Assembly (NCBI GenBank): GCA_016217665.1
Contig: JACRHF010000092.1
Location: 1 to 40,331, forward strand
DNA length: 40,331 bases
Reading direction: 5' to 3'
Source of the DNA: Nitrospirota bacterium
Lineage (GTDB): Bacteria; Nitrospirota; 9FT-COMBO-42-15; HDB-SIOI813
Positions 4,192 through 37,851 of this stretch are shown here, piece by piece. The first letter of the stretch is position 1. The number at the start of each line of letters is the position of its first letter. Under the pieces are notes generated by a model. The model was not told the origin of the DNA, did no database searches, and was given only the letters and a program-made list of their open reading frames with translations. The position numbers and the translations under genes are program-made.

Positions 4192-5184
4192 TCAAGGAGT
4201 AAAGGGTTGTTCCCTTTCAAAATCAGGACAGTAGTAGTCTTTGCTGGAATAGTCCTGGACCCAGCCGTTCTCAAGCCCAGACCGGTCAAGCCATTCCATG
4301 ACCTTTTCATATTCCCGCGGGTTGATCGGCCTTGATACGAGCGGATATCTCCCTGCCTTATGGGTCGGAAAGTATTGAGACATCGTACTGATAAACGTCT
4401 TCTCTCCAACCTCATCGCGGATAAATCTCAGACTTTCTTCGCTTCCGGCAAGATCATTGGGCAATACCAGATGTCTGATGATTAACCCTTTTATCGCAAT
4501 GCCGTCAGCATCAACGACAAGGTCTCCCACCTGTCTCTTCATCTCGACAATCGCGGGCCTCGCATGCCGCACGTAATCCTTTACCTTTGAATATTTAAGC
4601 GCAGCCCTGTCGTCGCTGTACTTCAGGTCCGGGAGGTAGATATCGATGATGCCCTCTAAAAGACTAAGTGTCTGAATGGAATCGTAGCCATTGCTATTAT
4701 AGACCAGGGGGACACAGAGGCCCTTTGAAGCGGCGATCTCAACCCCCCTGACTATCTGCGCCGCAAAGTGGGAAGGGGATACGAAGTTGATATTGTGGCA
4801 TCCCAGCGATTGCAGTTCCAGCATGATGGCCGCCAGACGCTCCATGCTGACCTCATTTCTCCTTAATGAACCCGCCGGTTGAGAGATCTGATGGTTCTGA
4901 CAGAAGACGCAACGGAGATTGCAGTGGCCAAAGAATATGGTCCCTGAACCTCTTGTCCCTGAGAGTACAGGTTCTTCACCATGGTGGGCACAGTAGCTCT
5001 CCACGATAGGAAGATGGCCGGAACGGCAGAAACCTCTCTCCCCCTTGACCCTGTCCACCCGGCAGGACCGAGGACAGAGGGCGCAGTCCCGGAGGACCTC
5101 TTCAAGGGCAAGGGCCCGATCATGGAGCTCACCCGATTCCAAGAGGCTGAGGTATCCTGGTTTAAGTTCCAAATCTCTTTTCAA
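4192..5184 (-). CDS. PflX-like radical SAM protein (COG1313)
   Basis: A radical SAM protein related to pyruvate-formate-lyase-activating enzymes. It has an N-terminal four-Cys region (CALCPRSCRVDR...GFCRSG), then the radical SAM cluster motif CNLRCVFCQNHQISQ (CX3CX2C), then NINFVSPSHFAAQIV and YNSNGYD typical of the PflX/COG1313 family. The size, 330 aa, is usual. The start is TTG at 5184 with AGGGGT upstream; homology (YLSLLESGEL) starts right after it. It overlaps the 3' end of the Fe-S flavoprotein gene by 23 bp, so the two are translationally coupled. No glycyl-radical enzyme is present in the window, so its target is unknown. Its place at the end of an electron-transfer operon may point to a maturation role for a partner protein, but that is inference. 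Confidence 0.88.
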   Translation of the reverse strand: MKRDLELKPGYLSLLESGELHDRALALEEVLRDCALCPRSCRVDRVKGERGFCRSGHLPIVESYCAHHGEEPVLSGTRGSGTIFFGHCNLRCVFCQNHQISQPAGSLRRNEVSMERLAAIMLELQSLGCHNINFVSPSHFAAQIVRGVEIAASKGLCVPLVYNSNGYDSIQTLSLLEGIIDIYLPDLKYSDDRAALKYSKVKDYVRHARPAIVEMKRQVGDLVVDADGIAIKGLIIRHLVLPNDLAGSEESLRFIRDEVGEKTFISTMSQYFPTHKAGRYPLVSRPINPREYEKVMEWLDRSGLENGWVQDYSSKDYYCPDFEREQPFTP

Positions 5185-6463
5185 TCTGCACCCCTATCTT
5201 GTTGAGGAACTCGTTGGGCAATTCGCCGCCGGCAAATATATAGACATAATCATTCGGAACCTCAACGATCTCCTTAGGGGTCGAAATCTTTATGTCCTTT
5301 TCCCCAATCTCCCTGATATTGGATTGATGCATTATTGTAACACACTTTTTGGCAACCATGCCATCCAGGCGTTCCTTGTTCATGGGCTTGATGCGGCTAA
5401 AGGCCTCACCCCTGTAAGAAAGGATGACCTTGTTCCCAGGCTGGCTCCCCAGGGCGATGGCCGCCTCTACTGCGCTGTCACCGCCGCCGACCACAACGAT
5501 ATTCTGATGCTGGTGCTGCTCAGGTTCCAATAGACGATAAGACACCTTGGGCAGATTCTCTCCGGGGACCCCGAGCTTTCTTGGGGTGCCGCGCCGGCCT
5601 ATGGCCAATACAATGTTCCGGGCAAGGTACTCCCCCTTCGCTGTAAAGATCTTAAACCCCTCGTCTTCGAATTTGACATCCAGCATCTTTTCCTTCGTCC
5701 TGATGGTCAGGACTGTCTTCCCTATGACTTCCTCCCAGAGGGAGAGGAGCGCCTCTTTGGTAGTCTCCTTCAGTTTTACCCTTCCATACATCGGGAGGTC
5801 CATGGGAGAAGTCATCACGATTTTATGCCTCGGATACTGAAGTACCGTTCCTCCGATATCGTCCTGCTCGATGGTTACAGACTTTAGATTATGCCTTACA
5901 GCGGCAAGGGATGCAGAGATCCCTGCAGGCCCCGCGCCAATGATGGCGAGGTCATAGAGATCGCCCCTTTTTTTCTCATCGCTTCGGAGAAGACAGGAGA
6001 GATATTCAACGACCTCACGCCCCTGAGTCACCGCGTTCTTAATCAGCCCCATGCCCCCCAGCTCTCCTACAATAAAGACCCCTTTGATATTCGTCTCAAA
6101 ATTGGGCGTCACATGCGGAATATCCACCCCCCGGGTCTCGGTCCCAAAGACCAGTTTTATTGCACCAATGGGGCAGGCTATGGCACAGGCCCCGTGTCCT
6201 ATGCAGCGTGATGCATTAATCAGACTGGCCCGGCCGTTGACAAGGCCGATGATATCCTTTTCAGGACATGCCTTGACACAGGCGCCGCTGCCAATACACT
6301 TTGCCGGGTCGACATAGGGGTGGATATGCACTGGTTCATGAGTCCCATATTCCTTTGCCTTTTTTATCTTTTTTAAATTCTTCCGGCTTCTCTTGCCCTG
6401 TTGAATGGTATAGATACCGACTACCGAGGATATAAAGAAAAATGAGATGATAGACGTAAGCAT
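5162..6463 (-). CDS. Membrane-tethered ferredoxin-FAD NAD(P)H oxidoreductase
   Basis: A 433-aa protein. One N-terminal membrane anchor (about 3-22), then two ferredoxin-like motifs (CIGSGACVKACPEKD and CIGHGACAIACP), then a thioredoxin-reductase-like flavoprotein with FAD motif IGAGPAGISAS and NAD(P)H motif VVGGGDSAVEAAIALG. In both Fe-S motifs the second Cys of CxxCxxCxxxCP is replaced (Ser and His). From memory this is common in this subfamily and suggests unusual cluster ligation. No redox-active CxxC of true thioredoxin reductase is seen. ATG 6463 has a GGGGGA ribosome-binding site. It lies 53 bp after the barrel gene and overlaps the radical SAM gene. With its anchor facing the cytoplasm it could move electrons between NAD(P)H/ferredoxin and the membrane b-cytochrome of the same operon (inference). 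Confidence 0.85.
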   Translation of the reverse strand: MLTSIISFFFISSVVGIYTIQQGKRSRKNLKKIKKAKEYGTHEPVHIHPYVDPAKCIGSGACVKACPEKDIIGLVNGRASLINASRCIGHGACAIACPIGAIKLVFGTETRGVDIPHVTPNFETNIKGVFIVGELGGMGLIKNAVTQGREVVEYLSCLLRSDEKKRGDLYDLAIIGAGPAGISASLAAVRHNLKSVTIEQDDIGGTVLQYPRHKIVMTSPMDLPMYGRVKLKETTKEALLSLWEEVIGKTVLTIRTKEKMLDVKFEDEGFKIFTAKGEYLARNIVLAIGRRGTPRKLGVPGENLPKVSYRLLEPEQHQHQNIVVVGGGDSAVEAAIALGSQPGNKVILSYRGEAFSRIKPMNKERLDGMVAKKCVTIMHQSNIREIGEKDIKISTPKEIVEVPNDYVYIFAGGELPNEFLNKIGVQIEKRFGT

Positions 6464-6516: not shown

Positions 6517-7782
6517 TTAAAAACTCCATGAAATACGGGACAGGATGGTATTTGTATAATAATCCTTGGCCTGTCTCCCTTCGTAGGATAGGGATAGAGT
6601 CCACCTTCTGCTTAGAGTCCAATATCCGGATACATCATATGTAGTAATATTATCGGTGTAATCGGCAATGTCATAGGCACCCGTTATGTAAGAACTGTGT
6701 AACGTGACTTGAAATACATCGTCAAAGAACCGGCTGAACTGTACGTTGTAAGTGTTAGAATTAGAACTGTAACTATCAGCCAAAGTAGCGCTCATATCCA
6801 TAGAGATATGCTGGTTCAGTAGATTGTCGTTCCTGAAACCGATCTGATACGTACTGGAACTCCTTAATTTCTTTTCGAGGGCATTGTAATGCAAGCTCTG
6901 GAGATCATATCTCCCGTATAGGGTATACCGCTCACGGAACCTGTAGTCACCTTGGACATAATAGGATTGCTGCCGGCTCGTTTCGATCTCAAAGTCCATC
7001 GATCTGTAAAGTTGGTACGCCCGAAACTGATTATAACCAAAGGTGAGGCCCTTTCTGTAGTCAGGCCGGTAGGAAAGTTCCACCATGACATTTGTCAGGT
7101 CACTTTTTTCTTCGAACTGGTTTATATCCACAGTCAATGATCCATAGAGTCTTATTTGTTTCAAAGGGAAAAAGGAGGATTGTCCATATATATATTCACG
7201 ATCCGTTCTCCCTTTATATCCGCTATAGATATAGGCGAGATTGGCAAACAACTCCTCCTTACGATAGAAAATGTATCCACCCACCGTGGTGAAGTCTGAG
7301 TTTAATTTTCCAGTATAAGGGTCCGGCTTTGTCCCCCCAAAGATTCCTATGCCGAGTTTTTCCCCTTGCAGAATAAGATTGACTCCATCCACCCTTTCAA
7401 CATATAACTCCTTGGGCCATAGTCTGCCTGCTGCGAAATAGTACCCCTCGACTCCGGTATATTCAAGATTCAGGGTATCAATACGTTCATTGTTGCTATG
7501 CCTGTTATAATCTTTCGACCCGAGGTTATTCCGCTCTCTCCCTTCAAAATGAAAGGAAAGACTTCCAGCCTTATTAAATTTATTGGCATCCAACCGGATA
7601 CGGGTGGATAGAAGATTAAAATCATAAGCAGAACTGGAATCATCAGTATAATAATCTTCTAAGGAAACAAGGCCGTGATATTCCGCACCAAACACTTTGT
7701 GTGCGGTATTTAGAAGGGTCAATAAAAAGAGGACGCTGTATAAAACTGCAGATGTTTTTCTCATCACTTTAATGTGTGCCAT
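6517..7782 (-). CDS. Outer-membrane beta-barrel protein of the cytochrome operon
   Basis: It has a signal peptide (MRKTSAVLYSVLFLLTLL...VFGAE) and then about 390 residues of alternating aromatic/polar strands, with short turns and longer Tyr/Asn/Asp-rich loops. It ends in ...SRISWSF, a C-terminal Phe typical of BAM-inserted barrels. I count roughly 18-22 possible strands but cannot fix the number. The ORF from ATG 7782 overlaps the cytochrome stop by 14 bp; the second ATG at 7764 (MRKTSAV) gives a more normal signal peptide. No good Shine-Dalgarno precedes either, so translation is probably coupled to the cytochrome gene. I see no sequence motif identifying a specific porin family. Its position beside a 49-haem cytochrome suggests it plays the MtrB-like sheath/porin role (inference). 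Confidence 0.72.
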   Translation of the reverse strand: MAHIKVMRKTSAVLYSVLFLLTLLNTAHKVFGAEYHGLVSLEDYYTDDSSSAYDFNLLSTRIRLDANKFNKAGSLSFHFEGRERNNLGSKDYNRHSNNERIDTLNLEYTGVEGYYFAAGRLWPKELYVERVDGVNLILQGEKLGIGIFGGTKPDPYTGKLNSDFTTVGGYIFYRKEELFANLAYIYSGYKGRTDREYIYGQSSFFPLKQIRLYGSLTVDINQFEEKSDLTNVMVELSYRPDYRKGLTFGYNQFRAYQLYRSMDFEIETSRQQSYYVQGDYRFRERYTLYGRYDLQSLHYNALEKKLRSSSTYQIGFRNDNLLNQHISMDMSATLADSYSSNSNTYNVQFSRFFDDVFQVTLHSSYITGAYDIADYTDNITTYDVSGYWTLSRRWTLSLSYEGRQAKDYYTNTILSRISWSF

Positions 7783-10700
7783 AAGGATGACATCTGAGGC
7801 ATTCAGAGTTTAGTGTCGTCTTATGTACCTTTTTCCCTCTGGCTGTATGGCATTCGATACATCCTCCTTTGTTCGTAAAGGCCCCTCCTGGATGACAGGC
7901 GGTGCAATTAGTCGGATTGGTCCCGGCATGATTGAGAGGGAAAGTTGTCGTAGGATGCGTGAAGGTCCAGGAGCTGGTGGACTTATGGCAGGTCTCACAG
8001 GTCGTCCAGTTATACGTTGTATGGCTCGCAGGCTTCGCAGGCGTACTGTAGCTCAAATGGCAACTCGAACACCCGGAGGTCGCCGTGCTATGCGTAAAGG
8101 CCCAGGCCGTCGTAGACTTGTGGCAGGTCTCGCAGGTCGTCCAGTTATTCGTCGTATGACTCGCAGGTTTTGCAGGATTGCTGTTTGTCAGATGACAGCC
8201 CGAACAGTTGGTGGTCACAGAGGGATGGATATGAGAGGTCCACGTTGTGATTGATTTATGGCAGTTCTCGCAGGTTGTGGAATATCTTGTCGTGTTGTTA
8301 ATATGTGTCGCAGGCCTCGTGCTGAGATGACAGCTCGAGCAGCCGGTGGTGGCCGTCGTATGGATAAACGTCCATGCCGTCGTGGACTTATGGCAGGTCT
8401 CGCAGGTCGTCCAGTTGTTCGTCGTATGACTCGCAGGCTTTGCCGGCGTACTGTAGCTCTGGTGGCAGCTCGAACACCCCGTCGTCGCCGTGGTATGTTT
8501 ACGCGAGGCCCATAAGGCTGTCGATATATGACAATTTTCACAGGTACTCGAATATGTCGTAGGATTGCTGGAATGACTTGCAGGCCTGTCACTGAGATGA
8601 CAGCTCGAACACCCGGTGGTGGCTGTGGTATGGATGAACGTCCATGCCGTCGTGGATTTATGGCAGGTCTCGCAGGTCGTCCAGTTATTCGTCGTATGAC
8701 TCGCAGGCTTTGCCGGCGTACTGTAGCTCTGGTGGCAGCTCGAACACCCGGTGGTGGCTGTGGTATGTTTACGCGATGACCAGGCCGTTGTTGATATATG
8801 ACAACTCTCACAGGTACTCGAATATGTCGTAGGATTGCTGGAATGACTTGCAGGCCTGTCACTGAGATGACAACTGGAGCAGTTGCTGCTTACCGATGGG
8901 TGAGTGTGCGATGTCCATGCAGTGATTGAGGTATGGCAGACCTCACAGGTTGTTGTGTTTTTTGCCGTACTAGTTGTGTGGCTAGCGGGTCTGCCATTGA
9001 TATGGCACCTTGAACAACCCTTACTCAATTGGACATGTTTAAAAGACCATGAAGTAAAGTTTGGCGAATGACATTCCGTACAGTTCTTGCTATATCCTTT
9101 GGAGAGATGATCAGACGCGGAGTTATATTGGCTGAGATGACAACTAAAGCATGCCGATGTCGTATTCCTGTAAACGCGGTTTCTGTGGCAGTCCTGACAT
9201 TCTGCCGTCCTGTGCCCTCCGATCAAGGGGTAGCCTGTCTTACTGTGATCAAACTGAGTGGGGTTCCATGTCTTTTCACTGTGACATTGAGCGCAGTTTT
9301 GGCTGCCAAATTGGTTGAAGTGTGGATCTGCATGACACTGGCTGCAATACCGGCTGGCCCCTTTATACTCTCCTTTAGTCTTGTGACAACTCGTACAGAC
9401 GATATCATTATGAACTCCTCTTAATTCAATGCCTCCCTCCTTCTTATGGTTAAATTTCCTTGGGAACCAGTCATTCTGTGTATGACATGAGCCGCACTCT
9501 TCTTTGAATTCCCCTTTGTGAATATCCTTATGGCAATCAATGCACTTTTCCGCCTTTGTCTTGTATCTCTTGTTCTCATGACACTTTTCACACTCTGTGC
9601 TTTTATGCTGTCCAATGAGCGGAAAATTCGTCTGTCTGTTATGGTCGAGGGTAGACTTTTTCCAATCCGCTGTGCTGTGGCATTTCGCACAGTTATTCCC
9701 CAATTCTTTTTTATGGGTATCGTCCTTCTCGTGACAATCATAGCAGCGGTCAGGCAGGGGCTTGTATTTTCCATCCGCATGACATTTCTCACAGGAGGTC
9801 TTTAAGTGCTTTCCGTCCAGCCTGTATCCCTCATACTCCCGGGCATTATGCTCAAAGAGGGACGGCTTCCAACCTTTCATGGTGTGGCAGGCCTCGCACT
9901 TCTTATCTTTAAACTGTCCCTTATGCGTATCCTTATGACAGTCCGAGTTATCACAGCTCTTGTAATTTAAAGGCTTGTAGCGCCCCTGAACGTGACACTT
10001 CTCACAGACCGTTTCTACATGCTTTCCCTCTAATTTATATCCCATGTACTTGGGTTCATTATGCTCAAAGAGGGACGGCTTCCACCCTTTCAGGGTATGA
10101 CAGGCCTCGCACTTCTTATCTTTAAACTGTCCCCTGTGGGTATCCTTATGACAGTCCGAGTTATCGCAGCTCTTGGTATTCAGAGGCTTGTAACGCCCCT
10201 TTACGTGACACTTCTCACAGGCCGTCTTTATATGTTTTCCTTCAAGTTTATATCCGGTATATTCCGGTGCCGCATGATTAAAGAGGGATGGTTTCCAACC
10301 CTTGATGTTATGGCAGGCCTCACAGACCTGATCTGTAAACTGCCTTTTGTGCGGGTCATTGTGGCAGGCTGAATTGTTGCAGGTTTTAAAAGGGATCCCG
10401 GTGAGTTGGTTACTCTTGTGACACTTGTCACATTTTACCTGGAGATGCTTATCGATGAGGGGATATTTTGTTTTGGCGTGGTCTGTGGGGACCTTTTTCC
10501 AACTCTCGGTTGTGTGACACTCTTTGCATGCTGGTTTATCTTTATGAGGATCTTTATGACAGGTACGACACTCTTCAAACTTATCAACCCGATATCTATT
10601 TTTTACATGACACTTATCACACTGAGTCTCAATATGTTTGCCAGTAAGGGCATACTTTGAATCCCTGTCATGATTGAATTTTTCAATTTCCTTCCATCCC

Positions 10701-11200
10701 TTGATGTTGTGACAGCGCTCACAGTCCCTGTCCAGTTCCCCTTTATGTTTATCTTTATGACAGGAGATACACTCTTGGGACAGGCCTGTATAATTCCCCC
10801 CTTTTTTATGACACTTCTCGCATTTGGCAGTGGAGTGTTTATCCAGGAGGGGATAATCTGTATCTTTGTGATTGAACTTATCCTTTTCCAGTGAGACTAT
10901 TTTAAAACTTCCACCCTTGTGGTCCGTGTGGCATTTAATGCAAGCATCTGTATACTTTGCATGGACCCCCGCCTTTTTCCTGATCCTCTCTGCCAGCTTA
11001 TCGTGGCAATCAAGACATTTAGTGTCAGGGATCCCGCCTCCCAGGGCGTGGCATTTCGTGCAGCTTGTAATTCCCTCGTATTTTTTATGAGGAGATGTGA
11101 GGTCTCCTGGACTTATCAACGATCCAATGCCTTCCTGCGCCAGGGCCGGTGAGCAAGACAGAAGAATCATCATGATAAGGAATAATTTTTTAAGCAGCAT
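7769..11200 (-). CDS. Giant multiheme cytochrome c (about 49 haem motifs)
   Basis: An 1143-aa exported protein. The signal peptide MLLKKLFLIMMILLSCSPALA could be cut after ALA, or at the Cys if LLSC acts as a lipobox. Counting by eye I find 46 CX2CH and 3 CX4CH motifs (CNNSACH and two CDNSDCH), one haem per about 23 residues, with many extra His as distal ligands. The first two-thirds is Lys-rich with a recurring block (CEACH..KGWKPSLF.H......GYKLEGKH....CEKCH). From about residue 735 the protein becomes Ser/Thr-rich with a two-haem unit (GCSSCH..., CETCHKSTTAW) repeated many times. The gene starts 6 bp after the b-cytochrome gene and overlaps the barrel gene. It probably forms a periplasmic-to-surface haem wire; whether it leaves the cell cannot be told from sequence. 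Confidence 0.93.
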   Translation of the reverse strand: MLLKKLFLIMMILLSCSPALAQEGIGSLISPGDLTSPHKKYEGITSCTKCHALGGGIPDTKCLDCHDKLAERIRKKAGVHAKYTDACIKCHTDHKGGSFKIVSLEKDKFNHKDTDYPLLDKHSTAKCEKCHKKGGNYTGLSQECISCHKDKHKGELDRDCERCHNIKGWKEIEKFNHDRDSKYALTGKHIETQCDKCHVKNRYRVDKFEECRTCHKDPHKDKPACKECHTTESWKKVPTDHAKTKYPLIDKHLQVKCDKCHKSNQLTGIPFKTCNNSACHNDPHKRQFTDQVCEACHNIKGWKPSLFNHAAPEYTGYKLEGKHIKTACEKCHVKGRYKPLNTKSCDNSDCHKDTHRGQFKDKKCEACHTLKGWKPSLFEHNEPKYMGYKLEGKHVETVCEKCHVQGRYKPLNYKSCDNSDCHKDTHKGQFKDKKCEACHTMKGWKPSLFEHNAREYEGYRLDGKHLKTSCEKCHADGKYKPLPDRCYDCHEKDDTHKKELGNNCAKCHSTADWKKSTLDHNRQTNFPLIGQHKSTECEKCHENKRYKTKAEKCIDCHKDIHKGEFKEECGSCHTQNDWFPRKFNHKKEGGIELRGVHNDIVCTSCHKTKGEYKGASRYCSQCHADPHFNQFGSQNCAQCHSEKTWNPTQFDHSKTGYPLIGGHRTAECQDCHRNRVYRNTTSACFSCHLSQYNSASDHLSKGYSKNCTECHSPNFTSWSFKHVQLSKGCSRCHINGRPASHTTSTAKNTTTCEVCHTSITAWTSHTHPSVSSNCSSCHLSDRPASHSSNPTTYSSTCESCHISTTAWSSRKHTTATTGCSSCHQSYSTPAKPASHTTNNWTTCETCHKSTTAWTFIHTTATTGCSSCHLSDRPASHSSNPTTYSSTCENCHISTALWASRKHTTATTGCSSCHQSYSTPAKPASHTTNNWTTCETCHKSTTAWTFIHTTATTGCSSCHLSTRPATHINNTTRYSTTCENCHKSITTWTSHIHPSVTTNCSGCHLTNSNPAKPASHTTNNWTTCETCHKSTTAWAFTHSTATSGCSSCHLSYSTPAKPASHTTYNWTTCETCHKSTSSWTFTHPTTTFPLNHAGTNPTNCTACHPGGAFTNKGGCIECHTARGKKVHKTTLNSECLRCHPYGTH
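8311..8850. repeat. Two near-identical 270-bp tandem units inside the cytochrome gene
   Basis: Bases 8311-8580 and 8581-8850 match almost base for base at an exact 270-bp offset (for example tccatgccgtcgtgga at 8371 and 8641). Each encodes 90 residues with four CxxCH motifs. More diverged copies continue on both sides (from about 7960 to 8310 and from 8851). The unit is in frame, so gain or loss of copies would lengthen or shorten the haem array by four haems without breaking the reading frame. Confidence 0.85.
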
Positions 11201-11206
11201 AGTTGT

Positions 11207-12103
11207 TTACGCCGTATGTGTGGACCGGAACAAATAATAGATAACGACATGTAACATCATGATCAAAAACATCACAATCGCTAAAGGGATATGAACAATA
11301 TGCCAGTAATGCAGAAGTCTATGGGATGTGGAAAGATAATTCCTTTTTCTGATCAGGGCAGCCTTTTTCTTGAGGAGGAAATCGATCTCCTTTCTTATCT
11401 TCCGCGGGATGTGGTAGTTGGTTTTTAATATCCTGTTTAACTGAAATATTCGGTAAGAAATCGTAACATCGCTCTGAAGCGTTACCAGAAGGGTTTTTAG
11501 TAAGCCAATATTTTCAGAATCAATGTCTGCCGCATTGATGACCTTGCTGAAATCAGAGATTTTAATTCCTCCTGAATATTTAGTTAACTGGGCTTCAATG
11601 GTTTCTATCGTACATTCGATATCGTGGACTTCCAGTTCGGTCCCTGCCAGACTCCTCGGTATCTGCACATAGATATATCTTCCTAATATTCCAAAGATCA
11701 TTGTGATGATCATGGACCAAAAGCTGGTCGCGATGATCCCGCCGAACTTGAATGTGGTATGAAGGGTGACAAACAGGGGGCCCAGAATGCCCAAGAACAT
11801 GTGGGCCGTCAGCCAATGACGCAATGAACCAAAGGATGTGAACCATGCAATCCTCTTACGAACACTGTAGAGCATCATGATCACCATCATTCCAGAACCG
11901 AGCCATCCAAGAAGATGCCAGATTCCCTTTCCTGGTTCATAGATCACGGGATATTCTTTCAGGTAATCATACTGGTGCATCAGGTGCAACATACTATAGT
12001 CTGGCTCGTATCTCTCCATGTAGCTTTCATAGCCTCCGGCACATAAGGTCAGCAGGAGGGTGATAATAAGAAACAGATAAAGAGTAAAGTCTTCTTTATT
12101 CAT
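11207..12103 (-). CDS. Membrane b-type cytochrome-like protein of the electron-transfer operon
   Basis: A 298-aa integral membrane protein with about five helices: roughly residues 6-24, 62-81, 94-117, 122-147 and 266-291. Candidate haem ligands lie in helices: H63, H96, H101, H115, H265, H268, H271 and H285, the pattern of a di-haem b561-like quinone/cytochrome b protein. A soluble, partly helical insert (about 150-255) separates helices 4 and 5. It is the first gene of the operon, followed after 6 bp by the multiheme cytochrome. ATG 12103 lacks a clear Shine-Dalgarno. A strong promoter with a palindrome lies about 20 bp upstream. It likely exchanges electrons between quinol and the periplasmic haem chain (inference). 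No close named family is recognised, so the exact haem number is uncertain. Confidence 0.75.
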   Translation of the reverse strand: MNKEDFTLYLFLIITLLLTLCAGGYESYMERYEPDYSMLHLMHQYDYLKEYPVIYEPGKGIWHLLGWLGSGMMVIMMLYSVRKRIAWFTSFGSLRHWLTAHMFLGILGPLFVTLHTTFKFGGIIATSFWSMIITMIFGILGRYIYVQIPRSLAGTELEVHDIECTIETIEAQLTKYSGGIKISDFSKVINAADIDSENIGLLKTLLVTLQSDVTISYRIFQLNRILKTNYHIPRKIRKEIDFLLKKKAALIRKRNYLSTSHRLLHYWHIVHIPLAIVMFLIMMLHVVIYYLFRSTHTA

Positions 12104-12121
12104 AATTTATCGGTTATACGA

Positions 12122-12157
12122 CTTTGGGATTTTATTCCCAAATATATTATTTGTCAA
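12122..12157 (-). promoter_or_regulatory. Promoter with palindromic operator, cytochrome operon (copy 1)
   Basis: On the minus strand: TTGACA (12157-12152), a 17-bp spacer and TAAAAT (12134-12129). The palindrome TTGGGAATAAAATCCCAA (12141-12124) covers the -10 box. Transcription should start near 12122, about 19 nt before the ATG. The same arrangement, 32 of 36 bases identical and 20 of 20 over the palindrome plus two flanking bases, occurs at 28838-28873 before the ATP-grasp operon. The half-site geometry TGGGA-N6-TCCCA equals that of CRP/FNR-family sites; its position over the -10 suggests repression. Confidence 0.8.
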
Positions 12158-12309: not shown

Positions 12310-13551
12310 ATGGACGTGGAATCCCCTGACAATCCAAACGATTCTGAAGAGACAGAGGGCTCGCAGAGAGTCCCCTCCTCTGATCCTTTAAAGACCTACC
12401 TGAAAGAGATGCGGTCTGTGGCCCTTCTCACAAGAGAGGAGGAGACTGGCCTTGTTAAAGAGATCGAACAATACAGGATGACCATTGCGGGGGAGCTGTT
12501 AAAAACCAGGATTACCCTTGAGGAGCTTAACCACCTCATAAACAGAGGGGATAAAAAGAGGAGGGGGGAACAGACACCCGACTATCTGATTGACGAAGGT
12601 CTGGCGAATGAAGACAGGCAGGAATTGACGGATATCCTTGAGGCGATAAAAGAGGCCGTTTCGATCTGGGGTAAGGAAAAGGACCGGGAGAGGCTGATAC
12701 AACTTCTCGTCTTTATCGAGAAACAGGCCCACATCTTTGAAAGGGTGATTGAAAGATTGATAGCGCTGAACCAGAAAGAACTGGAAGAGGTGATCAGGAA
12801 CACCAGTGTCCTGGAAGATAAGATAAAAAGGGCAAAAGACCATCTCATCAGGGCAAATCTCCGCCTTGTCGTCAGTATAGCACGAAGGTACGCAAACAGA
12901 GGACTCCAGCTCCCTGATCTGATTCAGGAGGGGAATATCGGGTTAATGATTGCCATGGATAAATTTGAATATCAGAGGGGGTTCAGGTTCTCAACGTATG
13001 CGACCTGGTGGATACGCCAGTCCATATTAAAGGCGGTTGCCAACCAGGGAAAGACCATCCGTGTCCCGCTTCACATGCTTGGCGTTATCAATAAGTTTGT
13101 CCGTACCTCCCATTATCTTTTACAGGAGAAGGGAAGAGAGCCTACTGCTGAAGAACTCTCCGAGAAAATGGGGCTCTCCGTTGAAAAGATAAGGGAGATA
13201 TTAAAGACCATGCAGGAACCGCTATCCCTTGAGAGGCCTGTGGGCAGCGAGGGGGATGCCCTGCTGGAGGATTTTATAGAGGATTCTCAGCCAACAGCCC
13301 CCCATGATGAGATCGTTAAAAATGAACTGGCCGGACAGATCAACGAAACCCTGTCCACCCTCTCCCCCCGTGAGGAGAAGGTCTTGAGGATGAGATTTGG
13401 CATCGGGGAATCTAAGAGTTATACACTGGATGAGGTGGGGGAATACTTTCATCTGAGCCGGAAGAGGGTGCGTCAGATTGAGGCAAAGGCCCTCAGAAAA
13501 CTCCGCCACCCCCGGCATGCTAAGAATCTACGGACGTTCTCAGATAAGTAA
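12310..13551 (+). CDS. RpoD-like (group 1/2) RNA polymerase sigma factor
   Basis: A 413-aa sigma-70 family protein without region 1.1. Region 1.2 (DPLKTYLKEMRSVALLTREEE), an inserted helical non-conserved region (about 75-170), region 2 (LIQEGNIGLMIAMDKF..FRFSTYATWWIRQ), region 3 (REPTAEELSEKMGLS) and region 4 (LSPREEKVLRMRFGIG...RVRQIEAKALRKLRHP) are all complete. Two promoter-reading positions differ from E. coli RpoD: T440 (-10 contact) is Leu in WWIRQSIL, and E585 (-35 contact) is Lys in LSRKRVRQ. It is therefore probably an alternative sigma factor. It is divergent from the cytochrome operon. A TATAAT at 12265-12270 is a possible -10 with no good -35. ATG 12310 has only a weak ribosome-binding site. 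The stop codon abuts a palindromic element. Confidence 0.9.
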   Translation: MDVESPDNPNDSEETEGSQRVPSSDPLKTYLKEMRSVALLTREEETGLVKEIEQYRMTIAGELLKTRITLEELNHLINRGDKKRRGEQTPDYLIDEGLANEDRQELTDILEAIKEAVSIWGKEKDRERLIQLLVFIEKQAHIFERVIERLIALNQKELEEVIRNTSVLEDKIKRAKDHLIRANLRLVVSIARRYANRGLQLPDLIQEGNIGLMIAMDKFEYQRGFRFSTYATWWIRQSILKAVANQGKTIRVPLHMLGVINKFVRTSHYLLQEKGREPTAEELSEKMGLSVEKIREILKTMQEPLSLERPVGSEGDALLEDFIEDSQPTAPHDEIVKNELAGQINETLSTLSPREEKVLRMRFGIGESKSYTLDEVGEYFHLSRKRVRQIEAKALRKLRHPRHAKNLRTFSDK

Positions 13552-28837: not shown

Positions 28838-28873
28838 TTGACAAACAAAATTATTGGGAATAAAATCCCAAAG
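28838..28873 (+). promoter_or_regulatory. Promoter with palindromic operator, ATP-grasp operon (copy 2)
   Basis: TTGACA (28838-28843), 17 bp, TAAAAT (28861-28866). The palindrome TTGGGAATAAAATCCCAA (28854-28871) covers the -10. It is the same as at 12122-12157 (32 of 36 positions). Transcription should start near 28873 and give a leader of about 80 nt. Confidence 0.8.
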
Positions 28874-28956: not shown

Positions 28957-29781
28957 ATGAAAATCGGCTTTATTGTGGAGACACGGTACCTTCGGCAGGA
29001 GATGCCCGGGGCAGTGATCAATACCTTCAAAAGGAGGGGTATTGATACAGAAGTGATCTGTCCACGTGAGAGTTATTTTAACCCTAAAGAGGGTGTCCTG
29101 AAGGCTGAAGACGGCACCGAGCTCAACCTGAATCATTACGAGGCTATCGTCTCGAGGAATCGTAATCCACTTGGGCTGGCAATGCTTGCCTATGCCGATA
29201 CAGCAAAAATTTTAACGATCAATACCCACGCCTCAGTCCAGAGGGTAAGGAATAAGGCTAAAATGGGCATTTCTCTTGCTCTGGCGGGTGTGCACTGTGC
29301 CCCAACCTTTTTAGCTGATCATGCCTCCATGCTTTCCAAACTTCCGCAAGACTTTTTTCCGCTCATTTTAAAGGCTACCTACGGCGATAACAGCCAGGGA
29401 CTCCGCCTGATTCGCCGCCCTGAAGACCTCGGTGACCTCCATTGGGGTAATGACCTGGTCCTGGCCCAGCACTTCCTTACCAGCGATGGATTTGACCTAA
29501 AACTCTATGTCTGTGGAAAAACTGTTTTTGCCGCCCGCAAGCCATCGCCAATCAATGGTGATCCAAAAGCACCCGCCCAGCTCATTGAACCGGATGCTCA
29601 AATGGTAAAGCTTGCTCTCCGCTGCGGAGAGATCTTCGGCTTAGATATTTATGGGGTCGATACGATTGAGACAGGCGATGGCCCTGTGGTCATCGAAGTT
29701 AATGATTTTCCAAACTTCACTGGAATACCAAAAGCCGCTGATATTATAACCGATTACATTCTGTCAAGAATCAATCGATAA
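28957..29781 (+). CDS. ATP-grasp protein 1 (RimK/ITPK-like)
   Basis: A 274-aa soluble ATP-dependent ligase or kinase. The N-terminal half is a pre-ATP-grasp domain (KIGFIVETRYLRQEMPG...). ATP-grasp features follow: RVRNKAKMGISLALAGVH, FPLILKATYGDNSQGLRL (nucleotide-binding Lys and loop), GFDLKLYVCGKTVFAARKP, and GLDIYGVDTIETGDGPVVIEVNDFPNFTG with E-x-N for Mg. It differs from copies 2 and 3 by Glu in place of Asp and FPNF for FPG(Y/F). It is the first gene of a six-gene operon, behind a promoter-operator and a leader with a small uORF. No close characterised homologue is recognised. Typical RimK forms peptide-like bonds with Glu; ITPK phosphorylates inositol phosphates. Which applies cannot be told from sequence alone. 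Confidence 0.75.
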   Translation: MKIGFIVETRYLRQEMPGAVINTFKRRGIDTEVICPRESYFNPKEGVLKAEDGTELNLNHYEAIVSRNRNPLGLAMLAYADTAKILTINTHASVQRVRNKAKMGISLALAGVHCAPTFLADHASMLSKLPQDFFPLILKATYGDNSQGLRLIRRPEDLGDLHWGNDLVLAQHFLTSDGFDLKLYVCGKTVFAARKPSPINGDPKAPAQLIEPDAQMVKLALRCGEIFGLDIYGVDTIETGDGPVVIEVNDFPNFTGIPKAADIITDYILSRINR

Positions 29782-29802: not shown

Positions 29803-30645
29803 ATGGACATAGCATTTCTTTTGCAAGATTCGGGATCTGAAGACCATGCCCCTCACGTTAGTTCTGTGACAAGGGATATTATTGACAGACTGCATGAAAG
29901 AGGGGCAAATGTAGACCTCCTGGTTCTGGAGAAAAAATCAATAGACCTTTCAAGTATCCGTCCTTCCTATGACCTCTATGTACTGAAGTCGAAGACCCCT
30001 TTGGCCCTCAGTCTGGCTGGAGCGCTCGCAGCAACAGGTGCCAATATAGTCAACACATACAGAGCGACACTTCTTGCCAAAGACAAGATTGCATCAACGG
30101 CGATACTGTCAGCATTTGATATACCTGTCCCTCCCTCATGGGCTACAGGCCAACCATCTTGTCTGTTCCCTCTGATAGAGGAAGGACCCCTTTGGATCAA
30201 ACCACCCCATGGCTCCAGGGGAAGGGGAGTTCGTCGTGTAAGTGCCTTTGCAGAGATGGACGGCCAATCCCCGCCAGTGGATGCCTATGGTCTGCCACTC
30301 TCATTGTTTGTCCAGAAGGAGGTGCCATCTGGTGGCCGGGATCTCAAGGTTTATGTTGTTGGTAGTCGGGTATGGGCGATCAGCAGACCGTGGCCTGCCC
30401 GCACGATTGAAGACAAAATAGGAACACCAGCATCTCTATCGCCTGAAATCCAGTCAATAGCCCTGTCATGCGGTAGGGCATTGGGACTGGAAATTTACGG
30501 CGTTGATTTCCTGGTCATGAGGAATCAGTTTTTTGTCATTGATGTTAATGCCTTTCCAGGTTTCAAAGGGGTGGTAGAAGTCCCGTTCTATCTGGCGGAA
30601 TATATCTATGAACGTGCCTATAGACTATGTAATCATATTATCTAA
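29803..30645 (+). CDS. ATP-grasp protein 2 (ITPK/RimK-like)
   Basis: A 280-aa protein, 21 bp after copy 1. Features include LWIKPPHGSRGRGVRRV (nucleotide-binding), GRDLKVYVVGSRVWAISRPWP, and GLEIYGVDFLVMRNQFFVIDVNAFPGFKGV. The D-V-N-A-FPGF motif and KV(Y)VVG...RP segment look more like inositol-trisphosphate 5/6-kinases (D-I-N-x-FPGY; KVFVVG...RP) than RimK (E-V-N-x-SPG; IRCFVVG). Overall similarity to copies 1 and 3 is clear but far from identity, so the three diverged long ago and probably act on different substrates. The ribosome-binding site GAGAGGA lies somewhat far (about 12 nt) from ATG 29803. Confidence 0.75.
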   Translation: MDIAFLLQDSGSEDHAPHVSSVTRDIIDRLHERGANVDLLVLEKKSIDLSSIRPSYDLYVLKSKTPLALSLAGALAATGANIVNTYRATLLAKDKIASTAILSAFDIPVPPSWATGQPSCLFPLIEEGPLWIKPPHGSRGRGVRRVSAFAEMDGQSPPVDAYGLPLSLFVQKEVPSGGRDLKVYVVGSRVWAISRPWPARTIEDKIGTPASLSPEIQSIALSCGRALGLEIYGVDFLVMRNQFFVIDVNAFPGFKGVVEVPFYLAEYIYERAYRLCNHII

Positions 30646-30672: not shown

Positions 30673-32076
30673 ATGAACCCTATGAATAGTATAGGCATAC
30701 GGCAGAAAAAGGCTGTTATCTTTGGTGCCGGCAAAATGGCCTGCGGGCTCCTTGGTCAACTCCTGTTTCATTCAGGTTTTCACACTTTGTTTGTAGCGCG
30801 TCGTGCAGAGGTCATTAATACGATTAACCGCTGGGAGGGATATGCTCTTGAGACAGCCGGAGACGGAAATAGGCGGTTGTCCATCCGCAACTGTGCCGCC
30901 CTTTCTATCCATGATGAATACAGGGTGATAGAGGCAGTGGCCAAGGCAGATGTGGTTTTTACTGCTGTCGGTATTGATAACTTATCAGCCGTGACCCCAC
31001 TTATTGCCGAGGGTCTTTGGATAAGAAGCCAGATCCCTAATACTCCTCCCCTTAACGTAATCGCATGTGAAAATCTTCCTGGTACAGGAGATTATCTTCG
31101 TCATCAGGTTCTTAACGCAGTGCTTATGAAAAAAACAATATTGATAGATCATCTTGGTGGTTTCTCGGCTGGTCTGACCCGCCGTGTTATGACCGGCGGT
31201 TTTATAGAAGAAGATGGTAGATTGATATTTTCCTCTGACTCAGAGATTGGTCTGATCATAGATACCCGTGGCCTTAAGGGTGACTTTCCAGATATGCAGG
31301 GTATAACTTTTACAGATGAATTCCCTGTAATGGTCATGCGCAAGCTCTTTACCATCAACTGTATCCAGACGATCGCTGCCTACCTCGGGTACAGAGAAGG
31401 TTGTCGTTACGTCCATGAGGCCGCTGTCCACCCCCGGGTAATGCCGGTACTCACCCGTGCTATGGCAGAGGCTATGGCGGCACTCAAGGCTGAATACCCT
31501 CATTATTCTAAAGAGATTGAGCAGGAGATGGCTAATGTCCTGGAGCGTATTAGTAATGCCGGTTTATCTGACACCATAAGCCGTGTCGCCCGAGAGCCCC
31601 GCCGCAAGCTCTCTCCGCGTGAGCGTTTAGTCGGGCCTGCGATTTTAGCGCGGAAGCATGATCTGCCCTATGAGAACCTCTGTCACGGGATCGCTGCGGC
31701 CCTATCCTACGATGACCCTACTGATGCGCAGGCAGTGATCCTGCAGGAGGAAATCAAGACCTATGGGATAGAAAAGATTCTGACTGAAGATTGTGGCCTT
31801 CTACCCTATGAACCCATTGCCTTAACAATCAAACGATTTTGGAGAGATATTGCCGGCACTATTGGCCGTAATCCGTCATCTTCCACTGAGAACGTTATTG
31901 TAGACGACATTTTTCAACGCCTGTCCCTGGATTTTACCATGGATCATGACCCCAATCTGGTCAAGATTGTACTGACCAGTGTGCAGAAAGAATTTATAGA
32001 TGCCCAGATCCATAATTATTTGCCAATCCTCATAAAAAAGAGAGCCGCCGAACTGCTTAAGGAGATGAGCAAGTGA
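30673..32076 (+). CDS. Mannitol-1-phosphate dehydrogenase-like enzyme with C-terminal three-helix bundle
   Basis: A 467-aa NAD(P)-dependent polyol(-phosphate) dehydrogenase homologue. The Rossmann motif is VIFGAGKMACGLLG, followed by PPLNVIACENLPGT, FPDMQGITFTDEFPVMVMRKLFTIN, AAYLGYREG and SRVAREPRRKLSPRERLVGPA, all as in MtlD. The catalytic K and N (KLFTIN) remain, but the following His (NTGH in MtlD) is Gln (NCIQ). About 80 C-terminal residues beyond the MtlD core (VDDIFQRLSLDFTMDHDPNLVKIVLTSVQKEFIDAQIHNYLPIL) resemble the three-helix-bundle dimerisation domain. The ribosome-binding site is GAGGAGGAG. It overlaps the next gene by 4 bp (GTGA). It sits between ATP-grasp genes, so it likely makes or reduces their substrate (inference). 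Confidence 0.82.
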   Translation: MNPMNSIGIRQKKAVIFGAGKMACGLLGQLLFHSGFHTLFVARRAEVINTINRWEGYALETAGDGNRRLSIRNCAALSIHDEYRVIEAVAKADVVFTAVGIDNLSAVTPLIAEGLWIRSQIPNTPPLNVIACENLPGTGDYLRHQVLNAVLMKKTILIDHLGGFSAGLTRRVMTGGFIEEDGRLIFSSDSEIGLIIDTRGLKGDFPDMQGITFTDEFPVMVMRKLFTINCIQTIAAYLGYREGCRYVHEAAVHPRVMPVLTRAMAEAMAALKAEYPHYSKEIEQEMANVLERISNAGLSDTISRVAREPRRKLSPRERLVGPAILARKHDLPYENLCHGIAAALSYDDPTDAQAVILQEEIKTYGIEKILTEDCGLLPYEPIALTIKRFWRDIAGTIGRNPSSSTENVIVDDIFQRLSLDFTMDHDPNLVKIVLTSVQKEFIDAQIHNYLPILIKKRAAELLKEMSK

Positions 32077-32864
32077 AAGTCTGTTTCCTGCTGGAAAGGG
32101 GCTCCCCCCCTCGTATGAATCCCATCCTGGCGGAAACATTTGCCCTGCTGGAAGGTAGAGGAGTAAAGGTAGCGGTACTGTATCCTGAAGAAGAACTACT
32201 CAGGTTAGACACGCTGACCGTGGAAGCCGACCTCTATCTCCTCAAGTCAGATACAGAGCTATCCCTGAGTCTGGCAAATGCCCTGGAAGGTATGGGAGCC
32301 AGGATAATTAACCATTGTAAAGCCTGTATCCAGATCAAAAATAAAGTGCTTGCAGCCGCTACTCTACTGCGTGTGGGAATACCGACACCCCGCTCGCTTG
32401 CAGCTTCCCGCCCAGCCCAATTATCAGAAATGTTTACGGCTACTCCTCTGATTCTGAAGCCCTATAGGGGATACCACGGCGTTGGAATCACTATTGCAGG
32501 GACGCCATCAGATATTCCTCCTCCTGAGACCTATCCAGATATGGTCTTCGCTCAAGACTATCTGTCTGCTGCACGCAGAGACCTCAAGGTGTTTGCTATC
32601 GGGGAAGATATTTTTGGGGTACGTAAGGCCTTTTCTGCTAATAGTTTTCTCCAGGCGGGAGAACCTTCTCCACTGTCTCCGGAAGTAGAGGAGATTGTCC
32701 GAAGATGCGGCCAGGCCTTCGGGCTGGAACTCTACGGTATCGATTTTGCGGAAAGCGGAGACAAAACCTACGTGGTAGATATAAATTACTTCCCGGGCTA
32801 CCGTGGCGTACCGGACGCTGCTCAACACCTTTCCGGCTACATCCTAAAGGTGTTAAGGAACTAA
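32073..32864 (+). CDS. ATP-grasp protein 3 (ITPK/RimK-like)
   Basis: A 263-aa protein starting at GTG 32073, overlapping the dehydrogenase stop (GTGA). Motifs: LILKPYRGYHGVGITIAG, RRDLKVFAIGEDIFGVRKAF, and GLELYGIDFAESGDKTYVVDINYFPGYRGVPDA. The last motif, D-I-N-Y-FPGY-x-G-V-P, is almost the signature seen at the C terminus of inositol 1,3,4-trisphosphate 5/6-kinases. All nucleotide- and Mg-binding elements of the ATP-grasp fold seem present. It is the third ATP-grasp gene of the operon. The following MFS gene starts 1 bp after the stop. No signal peptide: it acts in the cytoplasm. Confidence 0.76.
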   Translation: MKVCFLLERGSPPRMNPILAETFALLEGRGVKVAVLYPEEELLRLDTLTVEADLYLLKSDTELSLSLANALEGMGARIINHCKACIQIKNKVLAAATLLRVGIPTPRSLAASRPAQLSEMFTATPLILKPYRGYHGVGITIAGTPSDIPPPETYPDMVFAQDYLSAARRDLKVFAIGEDIFGVRKAFSANSFLQAGEPSPLSPEVEEIVRRCGQAFGLELYGIDFAESGDKTYVVDINYFPGYRGVPDAAQHLSGYILKVLRN

Positions 32865-32865
32865 T

Positions 32866-34083
32866 ATGAGGGGCAATGTTGCGATAATAGCACGGGCTAT
32901 ACGTTCGAACCCGACGATTGCGGCTGTGACTGCTGAGGGTTTTCTGACACGCTTAGGTTTTGGGATGGTCAGTTTTGCCCTCCCTCTCTATGCCCTTGCA
33001 CTGGGCATGAGCGTAGCAGAAGTGGGGATCCTTTATGCGGTACGTTCCGTTACAACTATTATGGTCAAACCGGTGATGGGATGGGCAGCCGATCATCTTG
33101 GCCGCAAGCGTACTCTCCTGGCCGCCGTGATCCTGCGATGCCTGGTTGGTTTTCTGTTTGTCTTTGCAACACTGCCATGGCATCTCTATGTCATCCGCAT
33201 TCTAAGCGGCGCTATGACAGCGGCCCGTGACCCCTCGGCATCAGCTTTGATTGCTGAGCATGGGAACAAGCGTAATATGGCCTCATCCTTTGCCTGGTAT
33301 ACCACTGCGCGTGAAGTGGGTAAGTCGCTCGGCTATGCCGTTGCCGGTCTGCTCATTACGGCGCCAGGAGGATACCGCACTATATTTTTGATCGCTTTCC
33401 TGACTTCCTGCGCCGCTCTGGTAACCGTCATCCGCTACGTCCGGGAGCACAAAAACTCAGAGGATGAGGAGGTTCCCGATCAGAAAGTCGTTTCTTCTCT
33501 CCAGCAACAACCACCCAAGATTCGTCATAGCAGCCTCCTCATACGTTATGCCGGTTTTGGTCTCATGGTGGCTCTTAATGCAGAGATGATGCGGGGGCTT
33601 TTCCCGATTATTGCCACTCAGTACGCCCATTTAACAGAAGGCCAGGCAGGAATAGCTGCCGGCGCTTCAACGATTGCTATTCTGGCAGCAGGTCCTATCT
33701 TTGGCTGGCTCTCAGATAATTTCAGCCGCAAATTAGCGCTCAGTGCCCGAAGCTTTGCCAATTTGTTTTCATCATTATTATATATCTTTGTCCCGACCTT
33801 TTCAGGATTCCTTACAGCCAGGGTGATGGATGACACGGGCAAGGCTGCCTTCCGGCCAGCCTGGGGAGCAATGCTGGCTGAGGTGTCAGATGCAGACCCG
33901 GCCTCACGGGGACGCACTATCTCGCTTATTGATTCTGCGTCTAACATTGGAGAAGTACTAGGACCCACGTTAGCAGGTATATTGATGGCTGCATTTGGCC
34001 TGCCAGTAATGCTCAGTGTACGTGTAGTGCTTTCCCTTATTGTGGAGATACAGGCATTTATAACATTCAAAGGACAGGTGTAG
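32866..34083 (+). CDS. MFS transporter of the ATP-grasp operon
   Basis: A 405-aa inner-membrane permease of the major facilitator superfamily with about 12 hydrophobic helices. MFS motif A is seen as GWAADHLGRKR after helix 2, with a second copy GWLSDNFSRKL in the other half. A charged central loop (REHKNSEDEEVPDQKVVSSL...) separates the halves. ATG 32866 lies 1 bp after the previous stop, with AAGGA as ribosome-binding site. It is more like drug/metabolite exporters than sugar-proton symporters, but the direction cannot be fixed. In this operon it may export the product of the ATP-grasp enzymes or bring in a substrate (inference). Confidence 0.88.
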   Translation: MRGNVAIIARAIRSNPTIAAVTAEGFLTRLGFGMVSFALPLYALALGMSVAEVGILYAVRSVTTIMVKPVMGWAADHLGRKRTLLAAVILRCLVGFLFVFATLPWHLYVIRILSGAMTAARDPSASALIAEHGNKRNMASSFAWYTTAREVGKSLGYAVAGLLITAPGGYRTIFLIAFLTSCAALVTVIRYVREHKNSEDEEVPDQKVVSSLQQQPPKIRHSSLLIRYAGFGLMVALNAEMMRGLFPIIATQYAHLTEGQAGIAAGASTIAILAAGPIFGWLSDNFSRKLALSARSFANLFSSLLYIFVPTFSGFLTARVMDDTGKAAFRPAWGAMLAEVSDADPASRGRTISLIDSASNIGEVLGPTLAGILMAAFGLPVMLSVRVVLSLIVEIQAFITFKGQV

Positions 34084-34109: not shown

Positions 34110-35438
34110 ATGTTAATGGGATTCTGGTTGATTATACCCCTAAGTCAGTGTCAGGCAAACGACAGACTGCTGGATATTCTTAAGAGTAAGGGAATCATTA
34201 CTGACCAGCAATTAAAGGAGATCAACAACGAGTCAATGAATGAGGTAAATGCCTCTTACAGAAATGGCTTTAAACTGGAAACCGGCGACCATAGATTTTC
34301 TCTTCAATTAGGCGGGAAGATACGGGCCGACTTCCGTTATTTTGCCAACAATAGTGCATTCGATACGTTTGATTTGCGAAAAGCCAAATTCTCAGTCGGC
34401 GGTACTGTCTTTAAGGATTATGACTATAAATTGAGTGTTGGTTTTGACAGTGGCACAGCAAAACTTAAAGATGCCTATATCCGGTACAATTTTTCTCCTG
34501 ACATCCAGCTTAAGGCAGGTCAATTCAAGCACCCCTTCGGATATGAGCGCCAGTATTCATCGAGGTATTATCCATTTATGGAGCGTGCGACGACAACCTC
34601 CGGCCTAACATCCAGCCGCGATAGGGGAATCGGATTGGAAGGCAACCCATTTAATGGCTATCTTTCCTATGAAATTGGCATCTTCAATGGAACAGGATCC
34701 AATAGTACCAACAATAACGACGATTTTGATTATGCCGGCAGGTTGATACTGCATCCTACAAGGGGAAATAAAGGTGGCTTCGACGCGGCCATAGGTACCT
34801 CTTATGCCTGGGGACAGCAGCAGGGGATGAAGAGTAAGGATATCAATCTTAAGACAGAGACCAGGAGTAACAATACCTATTTTACTGCTGAAATTCCGAC
34901 TGACCGCGGCTATAACAGAGAGAGACAAAGTATCGGGGCAACCCTTCTCTATGGTTCCTCTATGTTGAATGGTGAATACCTGAGAACAGATTACGACTTT
35001 AATAAAAAAACGAATATTCAGGGTGGGTATATAGGTGCCGGCTACCTTTTGAGTGGTGAAGGTCGCTTCATTAAAGATGGCAGGGTCAGGTATGAAGATG
35101 TTAGAAGGCCGGTGGATTTTGAAAAGGGCCAATGGGGTTGCTGGGAGATGGGAGTACGTTATTCCTGGTTTAAGGTAGATGATAGATTCTTCCAGAATAA
35201 TGGGATTTATTCCGGATGGACTGCCGTGGACGTGACTAAGAATGTGAACAAAGGAAATGCTCTTACTACAGGAGTTAGTTGGCGCTTTAATGACATGTCC
35301 CGCATTGTGGCCAACTGGGTCCATTCTAAAGCAGACAATGACCTTATAGGAGGGACATCCAATATCTTTACTCTCGAGAATGGCAACAAGATGGATACCG
35401 AAGATGCCTATCTGATGAGATTTCAGATCGAATTTTAG
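34110..35438 (+). CDS. OprO/OprP-type phosphate-selective porin-like protein
   Basis: A 442-aa outer-membrane porin. The short signal peptide (MLMGFWLIIPLSQCQA) lacks the usual basic n-region but is preceded by AGGAGG at a good distance, so I keep ATG 34110. A short helix (LLDILKSKGIITDQQLKEIN) follows, then the OprO/P barrel: FSLQLGGKIRADFRYF, LRKAKFSVGGTVFKDYDYKLSV, IQLKAGQFKHPFGYERQYSS, FMERATTTSGLTSSRDRGIGLEG, ending in ...YLMRFQIEF with C-terminal Phe. It is the last gene of the ATP-grasp operon (26 bp after the MFS gene). Relatives transport phosphate/pyrophosphate or other anions. It could give outer-membrane passage for the anionic substrate or product of the operon. Confidence 0.87.
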   Translation: MLMGFWLIIPLSQCQANDRLLDILKSKGIITDQQLKEINNESMNEVNASYRNGFKLETGDHRFSLQLGGKIRADFRYFANNSAFDTFDLRKAKFSVGGTVFKDYDYKLSVGFDSGTAKLKDAYIRYNFSPDIQLKAGQFKHPFGYERQYSSRYYPFMERATTTSGLTSSRDRGIGLEGNPFNGYLSYEIGIFNGTGSNSTNNNDDFDYAGRLILHPTRGNKGGFDAAIGTSYAWGQQQGMKSKDINLKTETRSNNTYFTAEIPTDRGYNRERQSIGATLLYGSSMLNGEYLRTDYDFNKKTNIQGGYIGAGYLLSGEGRFIKDGRVRYEDVRRPVDFEKGQWGCWEMGVRYSWFKVDDRFFQNNGIYSGWTAVDVTKNVNKGNALTTGVSWRFNDMSRIVANWVHSKADNDLIGGTSNIFTLENGNKMDTEDAYLMRFQIEF

Positions 35439-36305: not shown

Positions 36306-36355
36306 GACGTTGAATCTCTTTCGCACCTAAAATTTAATCTCGAGTTCATATCCCC

Positions 36356-37021: not shown

Positions 37022-37059
37022 ATTGCCTCCTGTTTAAAGAAAAAAATCCTTGACCCTTT

Positions 37060-37809: not shown

Positions 37810-37851
37810 ATTTATTCCCTTTACCAAATGCGGAATTCCAAACTAAAATTA

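Follow-up and report, generated by a model that had tools for sequence, protein, structure and literature searches.

Background

CRP/FNR-type regulators recognise palindromic operators with the consensus TGTGA-N6-TCACA or TTGAT-N4-ATCAA. A single TTGgGA appears, as one of the weak entries, among the TTGTGA-type sites listed in PMC545781. Autoregulated winged-helix one-component repressors of the IclR/BlcR, MarR, GntR and IdeR types have a palindromic operator over their own promoter. In Geobacter, multiheme cytochromes are under the control of GEMM-I (c-di-GMP / cGAMP) riboswitches (PMC6456294). The candidate regulator described here and its gene neighbour belong to DUF6502 (PF20112) and DUF5666 (PF18914), respectively, and Pfam gives no function for either family. 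A literature search, which excluded most subscription papers and all preprints, found no mention of DUF6502, PF20112 or TGGGA-N6-TCCCA as written.

The operator considered here resembles those of CRP/FNR proteins in being a palindrome of 5-bp half-sites with a 6-bp spacer, but the half-site is TGGGA, the spacer in Alphaproteobacteria is 5 bp and DUF6502 has no CRP/FNR match. The position of the operator and the predicted helix-turn-helix and winged-helix units recall the autoregulated repressors, but no match of DUF6502 to the IclR/BlcR, MarR, GntR or IdeR types was significant in either sequence or fold, so membership in these families is not claimed. As in Geobacter, a riboswitch was present in the cytochrome operon leader of three relatives; in contrast, DUF6502 would act at transcription initiation and no such riboswitch was found at the operon studied here. 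One-component helix-turn-helix autorepressors are of a known kind, while the role of the DUF6502 family, its operator and its regulon appear to be new.

Results and discussion

The window, a 40,331 nucleotide stretch of the draft genome of a Nitrospirota bacterium, has two operons with nearly the same promoter (Table 1). The 36-mers TTGACAAATAATATATTTGGGAATAAAATCCCAAAG on the minus strand and TTGACAAACAAAATTATTGGGAATAAAATCCCAAAG on the plus strand were identical at 32 of 36 positions, while the next best match to TTGACAAATAATATATTTGGGAATAAAATCCCAAAG anywhere in the window was 22/36. TTGACA-17-TAAAAT was exact in both promoters, and an identical 18-bp palindrome, TTGGGAATAAAATCCCAA, overlapped both -10 boxes. 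When up to three mismatches were allowed, the palindrome matched twice in the window, compared to a mean of 0.07 in shuffled sequences, none of which (0/100) had two matches. The draft genome, 1.71 Mb long and about 77% complete, had exactly three perfect copies, each within a TTGACA-17-TAAAAT promoter and with different flanks. The only other matches were a single sequence with 3 mismatches that occurred twice, close to the ends of two contigs, in neither case in the promoter layout. The earlier note had described the paired 36-bp elements and their common palindrome as a shared promoter-operator, as opposed to duplicated flanking sequence, and had proposed that many copies away from promoters would indicate a dispersed repeat. 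Its description of the elements was confirmed, and with every exact copy in the draft genome lying in a promoter the sequence is not a dispersed repeat.

Table 1 Features of the two operons in the window and riboswitches in related loci
Feature	Position	Strand	Remarks
Radical SAM protein	4192..5184	-	possible final gene of the cytochrome operon
Fe-S/FAD pyridine-nucleotide oxidoreductase	5162..6463	-	neighbour conserved
421-aa protein	6517..7782	-	judged by its sequence character to be an outer-membrane beta-barrel; without Pfam match; neighbour conserved
Giant multiheme c-type cytochrome	7769..11200	-	1143 aa, 46 CxxCH + 3 CX4CH
298-aa membrane protein	11207..12103	-	cytochrome operon gene 1; no Pfam match
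Cytochrome operon promoter-operator	12122..12157	-	-35 TTGACA 12157-12152; -10 TAAAAT 12134-12129
Palindrome TTGGGAATAAAATCCCAA, cytochrome promoter	12124..12141	-	predicted DUF6502 binding site; kept in orthologous operons
ATP-grasp operon promoter-operator	28838..28873	+	-35 TTGACA 28838-28843; -10 TAAAAT 28861-28866
Palindrome TTGGGAATAAAATCCCAA, ATP-grasp promoter	28854..28871	+	predicted DUF6502 binding site
RimK-like ATP-grasp ligase	28957..29781	+	ATP-grasp operon gene 1
RimK-like ATP-grasp ligase	29803..30645	+	
Mannitol-dehydrogenase-family protein	30673..32076	+	
RimK-like ATP-grasp ligase	32073..32864	+	
MFS transporter	32866..34083	+	
Porin O/P-family outer-membrane protein	34110..35438	+	
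c-di-GMP-I riboswitch	L098:1307-1409	+	
c-di-GMP-I riboswitch	L096:2429-2538	-	
c-di-GMP-I riboswitch	L097:2473-2566	-	

The third exact copy, on another contig, directly preceded the ATG of a DUF6502 gene in the same TTGACA-17-TAAAAT context, making DUF6502 the candidate regulator. This was the sole regulator gene found with the site, the kind of gene that the earlier note had proposed to look for. Autoregulation is classically suggested when a regulator gene shares an operator with the presumed targets, so the site was tested at DUF6502 genes generally.

In the taxonomic family to which the window belongs, all seven DUF6502 genes found (7/7) had the palindrome immediately in front of the ATG and TTGACA or TTGACT as the -35 box. 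In a set of 45 DUF6502 loci drawn from Nitrospirota and Gammaproteobacteria, an exact TGGGA-N6-TCCCA was located within 100 bp upstream of 22 genes, and a copy with at most one mismatch upstream of 26, where shuffled upstream regions gave an expectation of 0.075. The 100 bp upstream of about half of the sampled DUF6502 genes lacked a site; several such genes lie behind another gene, often DUF5666, though not all are explained in this way. The distance between the TGGGA and TCCCA arms in 49 DUF6502 loci was sharply distributed (gap 6, n = 29; gap 5, n = 4; all other gaps from 2 to 12, n = 1), and ten control palindromes gave no comparable peak. The gap-5 cases were the four alphaproteobacterial plasmid loci examined, from Methylocystis, Azospirillum, Rhizobium and Microvirga (L167, L168, L169, L170). 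The 5-bp-spacer site was upstream of DUF6502 in three of the four and downstream of DUF5666 in Rhizobium.

The operator and the promoter were most often in one register. The -35 box was phase-locked to the operator, with 22 exact and 5 one-mismatch copies of TTGACA at one distance, and the -10 box was made up of the final five N6 spacer bases together with the T that opens the right arm. The operator therefore lies within the promoter of DUF6502 itself and overlaps the RNA polymerase site, as would be expected of an autoregulated repressor. The view of the earlier note, that placement over the -10 box fits repression, agrees with this commonest arrangement, in which the -10 box is inside the operator. 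Moreover, the -10 box was 5-8 nt before the ATG in 20 of the 26 DUF6502 genes with a site (7 or 8 nt in 18), so close that transcription is expected to begin at or beside the start codon. Judged from this promoter geometry, the DUF6502 mRNA is apparently often leaderless (e.g. L015, L085, L090).

The site also tracked the gene among genomes. TTGGGA-N6-TCCCAA was present in 11 of the 12 Nitrospirota genomes with DUF6502 over the cut-off but in only 8 of the 87 without it, a total of 99 genomes (Fisher p = 7e-9, relatedness ignored). The twelfth, G017, had a variant site at the DUF6502 start. Four genomes of family f9 each had a single TTGGGA-N6-TCCCAA on the same contig as DUF6502, about 2 kb past its end. 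Of 229 gammaproteobacterial genomes that were sampled, 64 had DUF6502, which is also present on many rhizobial plasmids. In Gammaproteobacteria, the site occurred in 22/40 genomes with DUF6502 and in 7/40 without (p = 1e-3, relatedness ignored), and a tally of the listed coordinates placed 20 of the 37 sites in the former group within about 3.3 kb of DUF6502.

The candidate regulator of this genome is a clear DUF6502 protein (E 1.3e-91; score 306.6 bits, cut-off 27 bits; positions 2-264 of the 268-position model covered). DUF6502 was the only profile matched at E values up to 0.1; neither the CRP/FNR sensor nor the HTH_Crp domain was matched. In an alignment of 44 sequences, the segment around SRVSVLTGLTRKEV was strongly conserved and R61, R70 and K71 were invariant. 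In the AlphaFold model (mean pLDDT 84.5), helices 59-66 and 70-78 form a helix-turn-helix that is followed by a winged-helix-like unit, so that DUF6502 is predicted to be a helix-turn-helix protein in the general sense, with conserved basic residues. A Foldseek search with the model gave no significant relative (best E 0.2), so the DNA-binding fold is a prediction; its weak top matches included many winged-helix DNA-binding proteins, several of them repressors of the IclR/BlcR, MarR, GntR and DtxR/IdeR types. One DUF6502 member had a weak GntR match (E 0.011). Sequence relatives in the PDB were also sought, but the matches were at chance level only. The alignment had no conserved cysteine, so DUF6502 is unlikely to contain a simple sensor of the thiol or Fe-S type.

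The genes that recurred beside the sites across lineages were DUF6502 and DUF5666 (cluster of 44 proteins); no other regulator did so. Most of the DUF5666 proteins that were read have N-termini like those of exported lipoproteins. In this genome, the gene after DUF6502 encodes a DUF5666 lipoprotein, and the third gene of the operon (L006:10554-11435) an ATP-grasp protein. Two of the three predicted operons therefore encode ATP-grasp enzymes, and the regulon visible in the assembly is predicted, from the sites, to consist of the DUF6502-DUF5666-ATP-grasp, the 46-CxxCH cytochrome and the RimK/MFS/porin operons. Elsewhere, cytochromes with 21 and 27 CxxCH motifs around two sites in G017 are predicted targets, as is a protein that the site precedes in Sedimenticola (L156:5284-7443), in which DUF5666 is fused to a multiheme cytochrome that is in part MtrC/MtrF-like. 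Other predicted targets are large ankyrin-repeat proteins of G004 and G007 whose genes come immediately after the site (L051:6235-8028 and L049:4384-6201), and beta-propeller proteins of two Gammaproteobacteria with the site near the gene start (L139:4962-7262, annotated as PF09826, and L140:5093-7249), the next gene in both of these loci encoding pyruvate kinase. The possibility that the site in G009 is a relic of a deleted DUF6502 gene was rejected, since the site is followed by a lipoprotein gene in its own right.

The cytochrome operon begins with a membrane protein that, from its hydrophobic His-bearing segments, is probably a b-type quinol-linked subunit. Orthologs of the operon (membrane protein, cytochrome, barrel-like protein and Fe-S/FAD oxidoreductase) were found in five further members of the family. 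TTGACA and the operator were kept at the operon in all of the genomes with DUF6502, namely this one, G003, G004, G006 and G007, with one mismatch in the G007 operator. In G005, where no DUF6502 was found, the TTGACA promoter was intact and the palindrome was absent; this assembly is only 85% complete, so the loss of DUF6502 is not certain. Conservation upstream of orthologous operons, which the earlier note had made a condition of its reading, was in this case found in the relatives having DUF6502. Farther afield, homologs of operon gene 1 in family f9 had one to three sites in all 14 loci examined (14/14), and in 5 of these a DUF6502 gene with its own site was located within about 20 kb. Three homologs in family f3 had no site, and their genomes had no DUF6502 match. 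In G350, no site was found at a distant homolog of operon gene 1, although its DUF6502 gene has one.

A c-di-GMP-I (GEMM, RF01051) riboswitch was found in the cytochrome operon leader of G004, G005 and G007, and the operator was also present in G004 and G007 but absent in G005. No c-di-GMP-I riboswitch was found at the operon in the window; the G003 leader retains a terminator-like hairpin. A gene for a primary-type sigma-70 factor (window 12310-13551) is divergent from the cytochrome promoter, and likewise in G003.

The ATP-grasp operon was not found in a search of 14 relatives. A phylum-wide search gave two close orthologs of its first gene, 77% and 67% identical, in genomes where neither a DUF6502 match nor an exact copy of the site was present. 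The operon thus looks like a lineage-specific recruit to the regulon, and its link, read from an identical promoter in one genome, is weaker than that of the cytochrome operon. The joining of both operons in one predicted regulon, as in the earlier note, is supported, more strongly for the cytochrome operon, where the operator is conserved with DUF6502; membership of the ATP-grasp operon is not conserved among relatives. Convergent to this operon are genes for an inositol-monophosphatase-family protein, PhoU and an ABC ATPase (window 35478-37827), an arrangement that resembles phosphate-uptake clusters.

Judged from genome comparison, DUF6502 very probably binds DNA at this repeated promoter palindrome. 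From the site, its promoter phase, its co-occurrence with DUF6502 and its conservation, all of which are properties of the sequences, and from the helix-turn-helix of the structural model, we infer DNA binding, dimerisation, repression and relief by a signal. It is highly likely that DUF6502 is a dimeric helix-turn-helix autorepressor, that the palindrome is its operator and that DUF5666 lipoproteins and multiheme cytochromes are its targets. DUF6502 would bind TTGGGA-N6-TCCCAA, or TGGGA-N5-TCCCA in Alphaproteobacteria. The bound dimer would cover the -10 box, which is inside the operator, and so should exclude RNA polymerase, repressing the DUF6502 gene and the adjoining DUF5666 lipoprotein gene. 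Unlinked copies of the site would place other DUF5666 genes and, in Nitrospirota, the multiheme cytochrome operon under the same control, and some inducing signal would relieve the repression.

Several other explanations were considered. It is unlikely that DUF6502, although bound at the site, serves chiefly in activation or in dual regulation; some sites are not phased to the -35 box in the usual way and some promoters have two or three sites, but the commonest layout, with 27 exact or near-exact TTGACA boxes at one distance, has the -10 box inside the operator, where a dimer should keep RNA polymerase out. It is quite unlikely that another, unlinked regulator binds the site and that DUF6502 is merely one of its conserved targets. 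The proposed autoregulation of DUF6502 was read from promoter position, and an incomplete genome could harbor an unseen regulator, but only DUF6502 and DUF5666 recur at the site and the DUF5666 proteins that were read look exported. Moreover, the site follows DUF6502 in two phyla, is gone from G005, where DUF6502 was not found, and DUF6502 has a predicted DNA-binding fold.

The earlier note had favored a CRP/FNR-type dimer, by analogy of TGGGA-N6-TCCCA with TGTGA-N6-TCACA. The half-sites are indeed spaced as in CRP operators, and one CRP/FNR-like (HTH_Crp_2) gene is present in the genome, but that gene, on contig C44, has no site, the exact sites being on contigs C4 and C71, and the one regulator gene that has it, DUF6502, matches no CRP/FNR model. 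CRP/FNR genes were matched in 14/14 control genomes, so their presence cannot explain which genomes bear a site that is rare and tracks DUF6502. A CRP-type dimer is not expected to tolerate a 5-bp spacer, such as that of the alphaproteobacterial sites. Recognition by a CRP/FNR-family protein is accordingly very improbable, and the assignment in the earlier note was abandoned. That the sequence is a repeat, mobile or dispersed, or has matched by chance is hardly credible: the 32/36 identity itself is all that speaks for it. This was rejected because the whole genome has just three exact copies, which lie in promoters whose flanks differ, and because the same kind of promoter position is kept across phyla.

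Conclusions

Taken together, the comparisons make it likely that DUF6502 is an unrecognised repressor family of Nitrospirota, Gammaproteobacteria and Alphaproteobacteria, with its operator within the -10 box, an often leaderless mRNA, a spacer that changes from 6 to 5 bp in Alphaproteobacteria, and a core regulon of DUF5666 surface lipoproteins to which multiheme cytochromes of extracellular electron transfer are added in Nitrospirota and Sedimenticola. If true, DUF6502 would acquire a function, a DNA motif and a list of targets, and the DUF5666 lipoproteins a regulatory context. Named members of the family, such as WP_048816547.1 of Azospirillum lipoferum 4B and that of Methylocystis iwaonis, make the proposal testable. 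For Nitrospirota known here only from draft genomes, specific repression of an operon that encodes a giant multiheme cytochrome would offer an entry point to the question of when extracellular electron transfer is switched on.
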